Assembly (NCBI GenBank): GCA_022813675.1
Contig: CP063375.1
Coordinates: 1,810,001-1,874,000, forward strand
From: Deferribacteraceae bacterium V6Fe1
GTDB taxonomy: Bacteria; Chrysiogenota; Deferribacteres; Deferribacterales; Deferrivibrionaceae
DNA: 64,000 bases
Direction of reading: 5' to 3'
Below are positions 5,275 through 58,988 of the stretch, piece by piece. Numbering within the stretch: position 1 is the stretch's first letter; each line of letters begins with the position of its first letter. Below the pieces are notes generated by a model, which saw only the letters and a list, made by a program, of their open reading frames with translations, was not told where the DNA came from and made no database searches. The position numbers were made by a program, and so were the translations under genes.

Positions 5275-5282
5275 TTTAAAAA
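5275..5282. repeat. Target-site duplication, left copy
   Basis: TTTAAAAA is found here and again at 6750-6757, exactly outside the two inverted-repeat ends. The duplication marks an insertion that has not been rearranged since. The next three bases (CTG) also happen to match on the right side, so the repeat reads as 11 bp, but the inverted repeats align only if CTG belongs to the element. Confidence 0.8.
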
Positions 5283-5301
5283 CTGGCATCACCCCATTTT
5301 T
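5283..5301 (+). repeat. Left terminal inverted repeat of the insertion sequence
   Basis: The 19 bases match the reverse complement of 6731-6749 at 18 positions; the only difference is the fourth base. Beyond base 19 the two ends diverge. Confidence 0.88.
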
Positions 5302-5341
5302 ACATAAGAAATGTTATTTGACAGGTATTTATAATTGATAA

Positions 5342-5405
5342 TGCCTCCAAGATGTTGTATTATGATTTTAACGAAAAAAGCAACAATAACAACAAAATGG
5401 AGGCA
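5342..5405 (+). promoter_or_regulatory. Hairpin that would mask the transposase ribosome binding site
   Basis: TGCCTCCA at 5342-5349 is the exact complement of TGGAGGCA at 5398-5405, which holds the GGAGG ribosome binding site of the transposase. A second paired block (GTTGT 5354-5358 with ACAAC 5389-5393) continues the stem across a 4x4 internal loop. Transcripts entering from outside the element would fold and hide the start signal, whereas a transcript begun inside the loop would lack the 5' arm. Such protection from read-through is known in IS10 and IS50; its action here is inference. Confidence 0.6.
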
Positions 5406-5409
5406 GTTT

Positions 5410-6723
5410 ATGATAGGTGAAATTACTAAAAATGTGAAGGGAAAAATGTTAAACACTACAAGAAACCTTCATGATTATCTCACAAAGCCGCAACAAAAGT
5501 ATATTCTTGAGATTATTTCAGGTTGTTTTGCTACTCGCAGTTTAAATCTTACTGCCATATCTGGTTATTTAAATGAGAAGTGTGGAATTAAACACACATT
5601 AAAGCGGTTGCAAAGAAATACATTTAATTATTCACATCTACTTGCTATTTCAAATGCATATAATATTGATTACGCACTTAAAGAAACAGAATCAGATTCC
5701 AGGTTAATAATATCAATTGATGGTGGAGATTTGGTTCACAATTATGGTAGAAACTTTGAGCTTATTGGTAAAGTCCACGATGGTAGTAGTGGTCGTATTG
5801 CTAATGGCTTCCATTTAAATCATGCAGTGTGTTATAGCCCCAGTAGCAAACGTTTATTTTCATTATATTTAGATGCTTATAGTTCTAAATCTCAAGACTT
5901 TAAAAGTGAGAATACAGAGACCTTAAATATGCTGGATAAATTAAAAGATAAGTTTCGAAATAAGGGTTTATTTGTATTTGATAGGGGTTATGACAGGGGA
6001 GTAATTTTAAGATATCTTCTTCGAGAAGATTTAAATTTTGTTATTAGGAGCACAGGTAAGAGGCATTTAGAATATAAGGGCGAGAAGATGTCAGTATATA
6101 AAATTTGCAATGGTATAATAAACAGGCGTTACAAGAAGGGTGGTATTTCTTATGGTTATGCAAAATGTTACTACAACAATCGAGCAGTTACAGTTATTAG
6201 TGTGAGCTTTCATGGTAATAAGAATAAACTTTATTTTTTATGTGAAGGCCACATAAGTAGCAGTAAGGAGGCTTACTTTAGGATTAAATCTTATTTTAAG
6301 AGATGGAAAATAGAAGAAAGCTATAGATTTATGAAACAGCAATTTGGGCTGGAAAAGTGTCTTGTGAGGAAGTTTGAATCTTTAAAGACTATATTATCGT
6401 TAGTATCCTTTTGTTGGAATGTATTAAGCCAAATAGAGAAAGATACAATTGTTTCAAAACTTTTAGAGAATATGGCAAAAAGGGAGAAATTTAATAGTAA
6501 GGGTAAGGTTGTATGTAAATTTATTTATTATCGAATTTCAGATGGGTTAATGAACTTGTTATTATCATCTAAAGAACGACTTTTTAGGTTTAGGGAAAAG
6601 ATTTATGAATCAGATAAAGTGTGTTATTTTAAATTGGATTATTATTTTAAGATTAAGGAAAAAAGACATCGGATTAATGAGTTAGGAAAAATGAAAAGAA
6701 AGAAAAGTTTACTTGTAGCTTAA
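5410..6723 (+). CDS. IS4-like transposase
   Basis: Cuts and rejoins the element ends. Counting from the ATG at 5410 the protein has 437 residues. Candidate catalytic acids are Asp104 in SIDGGD, Asp191 in FVFDRGYDRG and Glu302 in RWKIEESYRFMK, giving the usual DDE order with a beta-rich insertion between the second Asp and the Glu. The protein is rich in Lys and Arg. The start at 5410 is chosen because GGAGG lies 6 bases upstream; the reading frame also extends to an ATG at 5335 but without a comparable signal. The gene fills the element and stops 7 bases before the right inverted repeat. I see no frameshift or internal stop. Confidence 0.9.
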   Translation: MIGEITKNVKGKMLNTTRNLHDYLTKPQQKYILEIISGCFATRSLNLTAISGYLNEKCGIKHTLKRLQRNTFNYSHLLAISNAYNIDYALKETESDSRLIISIDGGDLVHNYGRNFELIGKVHDGSSGRIANGFHLNHAVCYSPSSKRLFSLYLDAYSSKSQDFKSENTETLNMLDKLKDKFRNKGLFVFDRGYDRGVILRYLLREDLNFVIRSTGKRHLEYKGEKMSVYKICNGIINRRYKKGGISYGYAKCYYNNRAVTVISVSFHGNKNKLYFLCEGHISSSKEAYFRIKSYFKRWKIEESYRFMKQQFGLEKCLVRKFESLKTILSLVSFCWNVLSQIEKDTIVSKLLENMAKREKFNSKGKVVCKFIYYRISDGLMNLLLSSKERLFRFREKIYESDKVCYFKLDYYFKIKEKRHRINELGKMKRKKSLLVA

Positions 6724-6730
6724 AGGTGCA

Positions 6731-6749
6731 AAAAATGGGGTGATGGCAG
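6731..6749 (-). repeat. Right terminal inverted repeat of the insertion sequence
   Basis: Pairs with 5283-5301 with one mismatch in 19. It lies 7 bases beyond the transposase stop codon. Confidence 0.88.
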
Positions 6750-6757
6750 TTTAAAAA
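6750..6757. repeat. Target-site duplication, right copy
   Basis: Second copy of TTTAAAAA, identical to 5275-5282. The -35 box of the following promoter begins three bases later, so the element landed directly beside a regulatory region. Confidence 0.8.
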
Positions 6758-6760
6758 CTG

Positions 6761-6788
6761 TTGACAAAAATCATAGTATATTTATATT
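6761..6788 (+). promoter_or_regulatory. Sigma-70-type promoter driving the candidate small RNA
   Basis: TTGACA (6761-6766) and TATATT (6783-6788) are separated by 16 bases, close to the consensus. No protein-coding start with a ribosome binding site follows on this strand before the terminator at 6855-6882, so the transcript would be short and non-coding. Confidence 0.6.
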
Positions 6789-6794
6789 CTAAAT

Positions 6795-6882
6795 AAGGTA
6801 TTTGATAGAAATACCAAATACCCTCCTCCCCCCTCCTTAAAATATATGGAGATTGCCGGCTTCAACGAGGCCGGCTTTTTTA
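6795..6882 (+). ncRNA. Candidate small RNA with a CCUCC-rich single-stranded tract
   Basis: A compact transcript unit of about 88 nt can be read after the promoter at 6761-6788. GGTATTT (6797-6803) pairs perfectly with AAATACC (6809-6815) as a 5' hairpin. A pyrimidine tract at 6821-6838 contains CCTCC twice and ends CCTCCTT, the same bases as the anti-Shine-Dalgarno end of 16S rRNA, so it could pair with ribosome binding sites. A Rho-independent terminator closes the unit. The architecture resembles C-rich regulatory RNAs of the RsaE type. Hfq is encoded at 58.8 kb. There is no expression evidence, and the exact start is a guess from the promoter spacing. Confidence 0.45.
6855..6882 (+). terminator. 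Rho-independent terminator
   Basis: GCCGGCTTC (6855-6863) pairs with GAGGCCGGC (6867-6875), with one G-T pair, around a three-base AAC loop, followed by six T. The T run is on the + strand only, which shows transcription comes from the left: the candidate small RNA, and possibly the mutase/meaB operon before the insertion. Confidence 0.85.
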
Positions 6883-6994
6883 ATAATTTCCAACTATGGT
6901 ATAATTTTAATGGTTGCGCTTATGTGAAAAAATGGGTCTTTTTCTCTAAAGTATGGATTAATTGCTTGAGCCATTATTGTTTTAAACAATATAA

Positions 6995-7642
6995 CTATAA
7001 AATATCGTTTTTAAGTTTATTTATTTCATTTTGAAAATAATCTCTGATTTCTTCTTTTGAAATTATGATTTTCGGACTTAAATGGTCTATAGTGTCATCA
7101 AAGATATCGTCAACATAAAGTAATGCAGCAAAAAATAATTTCATAGTGATTCCACTTAAAATATTTTTACTCAATTCAAATATTTTTTTAAGACCTATAT
7201 TTGCGTGCTTTGTTATAAAATACAAGTCATAATAATCTCTATAAGTTGCTCTAACAAAAAGTGTATTTACTTTCATAGCAGTCAATTGTTCAATGGTAGC
7301 CAAGTTAAATTGCAAAATATTTTTAGGTTTTAAAAAGCTCCATGAAGAATTAAAAAAAGTGATTTTTACACCATCAGCAAGTAAGTCAATTTGCTTATCT
7401 GTCTCATTTAAAATGCTAAAGTTTTTAAAATATATTGATATATCAATTAATTCTGATTTGTTGAAATAATTTTCATATGTAAAAAAATCAAGGTCTTCAC
7501 TTTTCCTGTGATTTAAATGCAAAGCTAAAGCGCTACCGCCAACAAAGGCATATTTTTTTAAAAAATTGCAATTCTTAATTAATTTTAATAACACTTCCCT
7601 TGTTTCAGGAAGCAAACTGTTTAATTTTATCAAGTCGTTCAT
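6995..7642 (-). CDS. AbiEii/AbiGii-type nucleotidyltransferase (type IV toxin-like)
   Basis: A 215-residue nucleotidyltransferase-fold protein. The block FVGGSALALHLNHR followed by KSEDLDFF holds the G-S motif and the acidic DLD pair that bind metal and NTP in this family, and DYYDLYFI further on matches its conserved helix. Characterised members (AbiEii, MenT toxins) transfer nucleotides to targets such as tRNA and stop growth. The ATG at 7642 is preferred; an in-frame TTG at 7666 would add eight residues. The gene overlaps its upstream partner by 38 bp, the usual antitoxin-toxin order. Target and toxicity are inference. Base composition is even more AT-rich than the neighbours, consistent with accessory DNA. 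Confidence 0.82.
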   Translation of the reverse strand: MNDLIKLNSLLPETREVLLKLIKNCNFLKKYAFVGGSALALHLNHRKSEDLDFFTYENYFNKSELIDISIYFKNFSILNETDKQIDLLADGVKITFFNSSWSFLKPKNILQFNLATIEQLTAMKVNTLFVRATYRDYYDLYFITKHANIGLKKIFELSKNILSGITMKLFFAALLYVDDIFDDTIDHLSPKIIISKEEIRDYFQNEINKLKNDIL

Positions 7643-8066
7643 AATTTTTACTTTCAATATTATCAATTTTCATGTTTAAGATGACTCTGGCTATCAACAC
7701 ATTTACTTTTTTAAACCTCTCATCATTTTTCATTTTATCTCGCCAGACACTTTTTACAATTTTAGTACCGTATAGTCGTGTTAGTTTTACAATATCTTCA
7801 AAGTCACCATATTTTAAAGTGTGTTCAATAATAATATTATCATTAAATTTGGTATAGGGTACATTTTTATCATAACTCCAAAAAATTCCATTATTTCTCA
7901 TTTTATTAAATAAGGCTTCTTTTTTCTTTTCTTTTGACAATATTTGTTTGATATATGACTCTGATAAACCAAAATATTTTGAGATTTCGCTTATTTTATC
8001 CCCTTTTAAATAATTTTCAAAAATTTGTTTATTACGTGTAAGTTTGCTCATAACATAGTTTAGCAT
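7605..8066 (-). CDS. HTH plus DUF6922-like protein, likely antitoxin partner
   Basis: The 153-residue product starts with a helix-turn-helix of the sigma/resolvase kind (residues about 8-48, including DKISEISKYFGLSESYIKQIL) and continues into a region (GIFWSYDK, LKYGDFEDIVKLTRLYG) that I recognise as like the small DUF6922 proteins commonly placed before AbiEii-type toxins. The pair would form a type IV-like toxin-antitoxin or phage-defence module, with the HTH part probably autoregulating the operon. An internal ATG at 8051 is an equally good start; neither has a clear ribosome binding site. Classical AbiEi antitoxins have a winged helix instead, so this is a variant. Family recognition is from memory and moderate. 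Confidence 0.65.
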   Translation of the reverse strand: MLNYVMSKLTRNKQIFENYLKGDKISEISKYFGLSESYIKQILSKEKKKEALFNKMRNNGIFWSYDKNVPYTKFNDNIIIEHTLKYGDFEDIVKLTRLYGTKIVKSVWRDKMKNDERFKKVNVLIARVILNMKIDNIESKNYERLDKIKQFAS

Positions 8067-8084
8067 ATTTGTGTCGAAATTGAA

Positions 8085-8109
8085 TAGTAAAATTTGTCAG
8101 TTTTTACTA
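8085..8109. repeat. Inverted repeat upstream of the HTH/toxin pair
   Basis: TAGTAAAA (8085-8092) and TTTTACTA (8102-8109) are perfect 8-base arms separated by 9 bases, 19 bp before the first possible start of the HTH gene. Position and symmetry suit an operator for the HTH protein. AT-rich arms of this length can arise by chance. Confidence 0.35.
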
Positions 8110-8303
8110 AATTTATAATAAATTACAGCCATCGTGGATAAACTTATTATCTTATGTGTTACATAAAAATCATTAGATAAATCCTACAACCCTTCAAGGG
8201 GGAATTTCAATGACACAATTAATTATACATTACCTATTAATCTATTGCAAAATTTCTGATTAATTATTAATTTTAATATGCAACTTTATTAGTGAGGTAA
8301 CTG

Positions 8304-9089
8304 ATGAGATTTTCTATTTTTACAATAAAAACTATCCTAAAAGACAGACTGTTTTTGATGATATTATCTTTTATTTTGGTATATGGATTTATACCGTTTT
8401 TTAGTTATTTTTCTATGAGGCAGCTTCAGGAGATTTCCATTACTATGTCAATCTCTTTAAACTCTTTTATACTTCTTATTTTATCACTTTTTGGCAGTAT
8501 CTATACTATTTGGCGAGATATTGAGCGTAAATATACCTTCACAATGCTCAGCTATCCGGTAACAAGGGTCAATTATATTATTGGTCGATATTTGGGATTT
8601 GTTATAATTTTATTGATAATTACCCTAATAAATTTAGGACTGGGGGCTATTGCTATCAAGATTTCAGCAGGATTTTACAAATCACAGCTTCCAATTATGT
8701 GGAGCAATATAATCGTTGCATATTTGTTTTCATTTTTAAAATATTCAATAGTGCTTGCTTTTGGATTTTTATTTGCTTCATTTTCCACATCCTTTTTTAC
8801 ACCTGTTTTTTCTACAATCGCCATCTTTTTGGCCGGTAATTCTATTCAAGGGATTTATGATTACATACTTAAAGAGTCAGATAAAACTTCTCAGTTTTTG
8901 AAAGGTGTTGTTTCAGTATTTTATTACATTTTGCCAAATTTATCAGCTTTTGATATGACGTCTTATGCGGCATATTCAATAAAGATTAATAGTAATTCTA
9001 TCCTTTTTTCAATTGGTTATTTTTTCCTTTACGTGTCAGTTGTGATGTGCATCACTGTATTAATATTTAATAAACGGGATTTAAAGTGA
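8304..9089 (+). CDS. ABC-2-type permease, PilI-like
   Basis: Membrane subunit of an ABC exporter. The 261 residues contain six hydrophobic segments (about 15-35, 44-70, 98-120, 130-165, 170-185, 225-255) and an ABC-2 permease pattern, with TIWRDIERKYTFTMLSYPVTR between the second and third segments. It starts at ATG 8304 after AGTGAGG. It overlaps the next gene by 4 bp and the ATPase gene follows. The trio faces the pilin genes; Myxococcus xanthus has a pilGHI ABC transporter next to pilA that is needed for type IV pilus assembly, and I infer this is the same system. Cargo is unknown in the family. Confidence 0.72.
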   Translation: MRFSIFTIKTILKDRLFLMILSFILVYGFIPFFSYFSMRQLQEISITMSISLNSFILLILSLFGSIYTIWRDIERKYTFTMLSYPVTRVNYIIGRYLGFVIILLIITLINLGLGAIAIKISAGFYKSQLPIMWSNIIVAYLFSFLKYSIVLAFGFLFASFSTSFFTPVFSTIAIFLAGNSIQGIYDYILKESDKTSQFLKGVVSVFYYILPNLSAFDMTSYAAYSIKINSNSILFSIGYFFLYVSVVMCITVLIFNKRDLK

Positions 9090-58763: not shown

Positions 58764-58988
58764 ATGAGCAAAAAGTTAAACATTCAAGATTTGTTTCTTA
58801 ATCATGTTAGAAGAAAAAGGATACCTGTTACTGTTTATCTTATGAACGGTGTCAAACTTGAAGGGCTTGTTAAAGGGTTTGATAACTTTGTGATTGTCCT
58901 AAAAGATGAAAATCAAAAAATGATTTACAAACATGCTATATCTACTATTGAGCCTTCGGAAGAAATACCTGAAATAGAAGTAGAATAG
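58764..58988 (+). CDS. hfq: RNA chaperone Hfq
   Basis: Hexameric Sm-like protein that pairs small RNAs with mRNAs. The 74-residue product has Sm1 ([25 protein letters not shown]), written here across its halves, with [13 protein letters not shown], the proximal-site segment FVIVLKD and Sm2 IYKHAISTI (the usual YKHAIST). The C-terminal tail is short and acidic. ATG with GTGAGGGG. It is the first gene of a long + strand run ending at greA, and it makes a candidate partner for the small RNA at 6.8 kb. Confidence 0.96.

Follow-up and report, generated by a model that had tools for sequence, protein, structure and literature searches.

Architecture of the locus

The question raised by positions 6761-6882 of the 64-kb stretch of DNA analysed here (the window, taken from the genome G000, which is one contig of 2,358,333 bases) is whether a promoter, a pyrimidine tract and a terminator that follow one another there make up a stand-alone small RNA gene and, if so, how such an RNA might act. 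A sequence-only reading had proposed a gene of this kind, and the parts that it named are present on the forward strand, to which all coordinates below refer unless stated otherwise. The near-consensus promoter was recovered by a promoter scan as the top site within 5500-8500, with a -35 element TTGACA (6761-6766) and a -10 element TATATT (6783-6788) separated by a 16-nt spacer, giving 11/12 consensus matches over 6761-6788. With its start placed from this promoter, the predicted small RNA has about 88 nt (6795-6882) and a predicted fold of -28.6 kcal/mol (z = -4.9), beating 200 of 200 shuffles. It would begin with a perfect 7-bp hairpin, GGUAUUU-GAUAG-AAAUACC (6797-6815), and continue with the announced 18-nt pyrimidine tract CCCTCCTCCCCCCTCCTT (6821-6838), which is unique in the window with 3 mismatches allowed (chance expectation 0.06). 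The tract opens a core delimited by alignment, CCCUCCUCCCCCCUCCUUAAAAUAUAU (6821-6847), whose two anti-Shine-Dalgarno modules, CCCUCCUCC and CCUCCUU, form the putative seed. Next comes a GGAG (6848-6851) for which a 4-bp pairing with CUCC of the tract is possible, and the RNA would end at an intrinsic terminator as strong as had been claimed, GCCGGCUUC-AAC-GAGGCCGGC then UUUUUU (6855-6881), in which a stem of nine pairs, seven of them G-C (6855-6875), is followed directly 3' by six T.

Homologues across the Deferribacterales

Close homologues were found by DNA search in every member genome searched of four families, f1, f2, f3 and f8 (12 loci, E 1.5e-60 to 2e-9), f1 being a single genus that comprises the window's genome and two other genomes (G000, G001 and G002). 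A covariance model, R1, recovered all 12 of them at 55-105 bits (E 3.6e-19 to 1.1e-8) and also picked up diverged members in two f5 genomes, which score 46 and 34 bits with E-values (1.4e-6 and 4.6e-4) that come, like those of the weak f6 members, from a lightly calibrated covariance model. The f6 genera g6 and g13 carry TTTTCCCTCCCCTCCTTAACACACAT, then a GC-rich terminator, beside a PilT-type gene, and have an identical CCCTCCCCTCCTTAACACA; these diverged members score only 25-31 bits with R1, and their membership was accepted because of synteny and the exact core, not because of the score. The homologue searches gave no convincing copy in the f6 genera g10 and g16, nor anywhere in f4, f7, f9 and f10, and, as some genomes are incomplete, absence in any single genome is not firm. 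A possible paralogue in the window's own genome (G000:C1:239908, 33 bits) proved to be the end of a coding sequence plus a terminator. When 385 relatives were searched widely, four weak matches were obtained in other phyla, which we take for analogues at most rather than for homologues, and the phage, plasmid and viral-contig collections held no match to the RNA. Separately, C-rich intergenic stretches were observed by strong terminators in unrelated genomes (L114 and L118 in G100, and L116 in G347; e.g., ACCCCTAUCCUCCUUAAAAUAAA), and these are possibly independent C-rich small RNAs.

Conserved and variable parts

The most constant part of the RNA is the core, CCCUCC(U)CCCCCUCCUUAAAAUAUAU, in which 26-27 of 27 nt are identical between families; the match is 27/27 in f1, f2 and f8, and two f3 genomes have one C fewer, in agreement with the expectation that the CCTCC tract should be constant. 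Between families, identity approaches chance in three regions: it is 35% for the promoter spacer, 29% for the sequence upstream of the promoter and gene, and 37% for that downstream. The -35 box TTGACA is the same in 12/12 close homologues and the -10 box reads TATATT in 11 of them and TATACT in one, with a spacer of 16-17 nt throughout. As for the terminator stem, four of eight pairs change on both sides among the homologues (GC to AU, CG to GC or AU, and others) with pairing kept, and its covariation score of 0.250, compared with 0.099 in shuffles and reached by none of 500, collapses when the partners are slid. The compensatory changes that had been looked for were thus encountered in this stem, and a broken terminator stem or, among the close homologues, missing promoter boxes, which would speak against the gene, were not. 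An intrinsic terminator of conserved structure is also a mark of trans-encoded base-pairing sRNAs. Because the locus is conserved in other families of the order, it lies far beyond chance, and we conclude that we are, very probably, dealing with a genuine small RNA gene, long kept across most families of the Deferribacterales.

The 5' hairpin is as perfect in the window as had been described, but it is limited to the three f1 genomes, and conservation of its stem failed outside that genus. Its place is taken in f8 by a 12-bp stem, AUAUUUUAAGGA/UCCUUAAAAUAU, whose loop is the C tract, and the 5' part has little structure in f2 and f3. This lineage-variable part probably serves the stability or the presentation of the core. 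The fold-back partner GGAG is kept in f1-f3 and absent from f5, f6 and f8, and the tract is predicted to be mostly unpaired in every homologue (mean unpaired 0.54-0.99). In f2 only (L024, L022 and L025), the -10 box is overlapped by GTTTAATATATTAAAC, which is perfectly palindromic and a possible operator.

Autonomy of the gene

The surroundings of the RNA gene differ from family to family. In f1 it sits 3' of meaB, the two genes pointing the same way; in f2 it falls between ahcY and meaB, which is convergent there; in f6 its neighbour is a PilT-type ATPase gene, and in f3 and f8 it adjoins an operon whose last gene is such an ATPase gene, the genes on its opposite side being different. Because the neighbouring genes change, we regard it as an autonomous gene and not as a cis element of one gene; a promoter of its own and independence from its neighbours are likewise features of trans-encoded base-pairing sRNAs. 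The stand-alone small RNA gene of the sequence-only reading is in this way sustained by a kept promoter, an invariant core, a covarying terminator and changing neighbours.

A cis-acting element of the neighbouring genes, be it a leader, an attenuator or an operon terminator, would suit the situation in f1, where the RNA gene is directly 3' of meaB and its terminator could end the meaB operon too, but the neighbours, their orientation and the downstream gene vary between families while the promoter and the core stay constant, and in the window genome an insertion sequence splits the RNA gene from meaB with the promoter retained. We consider this explanation largely refuted and very improbable. 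The insertion sequence, which has a DDE transposase and terminal inverted repeats (5275-6760), is flanked by 11-bp direct repeats, TTTAAAAACTG, at 5275-5285 and 6750-6760 (target duplication), the downstream copy abutting the -35 box, and it leaves the RNA promoter intact; the near-identical genome G002 has an empty site where the window has the element. A small protein-coding gene deserves even less credence: an ATG at 6846 does open a frame through the terminator, yet it has no ribosome-binding site, as the earlier statement that no open frame here has a start signal implied, and it is missing in f8, and the alignment holds no reading frame common to the homologues. The same alignment disposes of a run of pyrimidines placed by chance after a promoter-like site and before a terminator, which is at odds with the 27-nt identity between families, so that we regard both ideas as refuted. 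On the reverse strand of the window (6995-8066), an AbiEii-type nucleotidyltransferase gene overlaps a Mor/DUF6922-like gene; this pair, a possible type IV toxin-antitoxin, is also found in G002 and not at the corresponding place in G001.

Pairing potential and candidate targets

CCUCCUU is the anti-Shine-Dalgarno sequence of the 3' end of 16S rRNA. The invariant core contains it together with the second module, and is complementary to AAGGAGG, as had been claimed when pairing with such ribosome-binding sites across many mRNAs was suggested. This complementarity stands, but the sites are fewer than that suggestion would require: genome-wide, about 112 ATG codons have AAGGAGG 3-9 nt before them, the count for the reversed pattern being 22, and among the 52 start sites inferred in the window AAGGAGG occurs in 1 and GGAGG in 9. 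Since AAGGAGG is uncommon, the possible reach of the RNA is about a hundred genes, at most about 5%, and not most genes. When pairing of the tract with these 52 ribosome-binding sites was computed, the value obtained was -9.0 kcal/mol, compared with -9.26 (sd 0.28) for shuffles of the same composition. Six sites with AGGAGGGG before ATG were counted against 1 in the control, and the start sites with TTTTAAGGAGG and AGGAGGGG give mixed gene lists, while a search for longer complementary stretches (AAGGAGGGGGGAGG, at most 2 mismatches) yields only the RNA locus itself and two other sites.

The candidate targets include, in f1, a sodium:solute symporter (PF00474), fliQ (PF01313) and a PilP-like gene, to which f2 adds a FlgJ-like gene and f3 an ActP-like symporter; the names PilP-like, ActP-like and FlgJ-like, which have no Pfam accession, come from a reading of the sequence. 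The predicted duplexes with these candidates range from -18 to -28 kcal/mol. No target clearly recurs across families, beyond the sodium:solute symporter site in f1 and f3, and the symporter genes of these two families may be non-orthologous. Because the tract has no advantage over shuffled versions of equal composition on the start sites of the window, and recurrence is not clear, the targets are to be read as candidates only. Pairing itself is inferred because the core equals the anti-Shine-Dalgarno and because C-rich sRNAs offer a precedent.

Hfq and its co-occurrence with the RNA

The RNA chaperone Hfq had been said to be encoded in the same window, and it was found there as a protein of 74 aa (58764-58988; PF17209, 7e-31), the candidate partner of the RNA. 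The Hfq family is present in the 12/12 genomes with close homologues and also in f5, f6, f9 and f10, and every genome where the RNA was found encodes it. In none of the 21 f4 and f7 genomes was either Hfq or the RNA found; because these two families fall into one clade of the UvrB tree (96/98 support), the joint absence counts as one event and is weak evidence of dependence. The f6 genera g10 and g16 keep Hfq without a detectable RNA. Perfect Shine-Dalgarno sites are fewer in the f4 and f7 genomes tested (14-42 vs. 84-173), and the 87 such sites of G008 are matched by 77 in the control. A further protein, of 168 aa and with two tandem Hfq domains (G000:C1:780156-780662; L197:257-763), exists in addition to the 74-aa Hfq, and most genomes of the order that have Hfq encode this protein as well.

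Comparison with known RNAs

The CcsR1-4 RNAs of Rhodobacter sphaeroides are regulatory and carry the motif CCUCCUCCC. They are processed from the ccaF1 3' UTR (PMC8625941), whereas the RNA described here has its own promoter. The alpha-r14 or cuckoo RNAs of alphaproteobacteria (RF02344) resemble it in being trans-encoded from a sigma-70-type promoter and in having an unpaired anti-Shine-Dalgarno motif, CCUCCUCCC in their case, outside of which the sequence is free to change (PMC10746234, PMC3927594), and a member of this group, NfeR1 of Sinorhizobium meliloti, silences ntrB via CCUCCUCCC (PMC10746234). However, alpha-r14 RNAs have three hairpins, each exposing CCUCCUCCC, while the RNA of the Deferribacterales has one continuous tract with an invariant AU-rich 3' extension, unlike alpha-r14; furthermore, NfeR1 was reported to be Hfq-independent and the present RNA was found only in Hfq-encoding genomes. 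Membership in RF02344 was accordingly rejected (11.5 bits vs. a gathering score of 58.8, with the triple hairpin absent). RsaE/RoxS and IsrR of the Firmicutes also aim single-stranded C-rich regions at Shine-Dalgarno sequences in AT-rich genomes (PMC9410917); in the AT-rich staphylococci, C-rich sRNA regions select Shine-Dalgarno sites, and IsrR is Hfq-independent (PMC9410917). These RNAs differ in having several separated C-rich regions in place of one continuous tract.

Neither the window nor four homologous loci matched any Rfam family, RsaE/RoxS and other C-rich ones included, at the gathering score, and the best weak matches at relaxed thresholds, rseX (22.6 bits, E 0.95) and RprA (21.7 bits, E 2.9), seem to owe their scores to the terminator and the AU-rich composition. 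The earlier statement that no RNA with such a layout was described in this group agrees with these results and with our literature searches, which found none for these genera and no report of a regulatory RNA from the Deferribacterota. The class of mechanism has been described before, and the RNA family and the host phylum appear to be new.

Proposed role of the RNA

We propose, with a probability of roughly three in four, that the locus encodes a free-standing, trans-acting regulatory RNA that masks strong Shine-Dalgarno sites, probably with the assistance of Hfq. Judging from the conserved sequence, an RNA of roughly 75-90 nt would be made from its own sigma-70-type promoter and ended by the intrinsic terminator. 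Its single-stranded C-rich core with CCUCCUU would pair with G-rich Shine-Dalgarno sequences, e.g., AAGGAGG(GG), and the paired core would compete with the 30S subunit, lowering the translation of those mRNAs. The AU-rich stretch and the U-tail by the terminator probably bind Hfq, and specificity could arise because the genomes are AT-rich and contain few G-rich stretches other than Shine-Dalgarno sites. A more far-reaching version sees a phylum-specific global regulator that imitates the 16S anti-Shine-Dalgarno and, with Hfq, tunes the hundred or so mRNAs with the strongest Shine-Dalgarno sites, the f4/f7 clade having lost the RNA, Hfq and most perfect sites; we hold this version to be possible, though doubtful.

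It is also conceivable that the conserved RNA is mainly a protein-binding sponge or scaffold, for Hfq, the double-Hfq protein or another binder of single-stranded or C-rich RNA, and does not pair with Shine-Dalgarno sites. Such a role would account for the conservation of the AU stretch along with the C tract, and it is consistent with pairing to the ribosome-binding sites of the window that composition alone explains and with the additional tandem-Hfq protein encoded by the same genomes. However, the invariant core holds the exact anti-Shine-Dalgarno CCUCCUU, which no protein known to us requires, and the C-rich sRNAs of other phyla work by pairing, so that we judge it unlikely and favor the masking of strong Shine-Dalgarno sites. 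Because the core equals the anti-Shine-Dalgarno of the ribosome, this reading makes a question directly testable, namely how an RNA able to mask every strong ribosome-binding site can be selective, and whether this selectivity comes from Hfq. If true, the Deferribacterota would have their first conserved regulatory RNA, common to lineages that are thermophilic and lineages that are mesophilic, and the anti-Shine-Dalgarno strategy of the alphaproteobacteria and the Firmicutes would apparently have arisen here independently.
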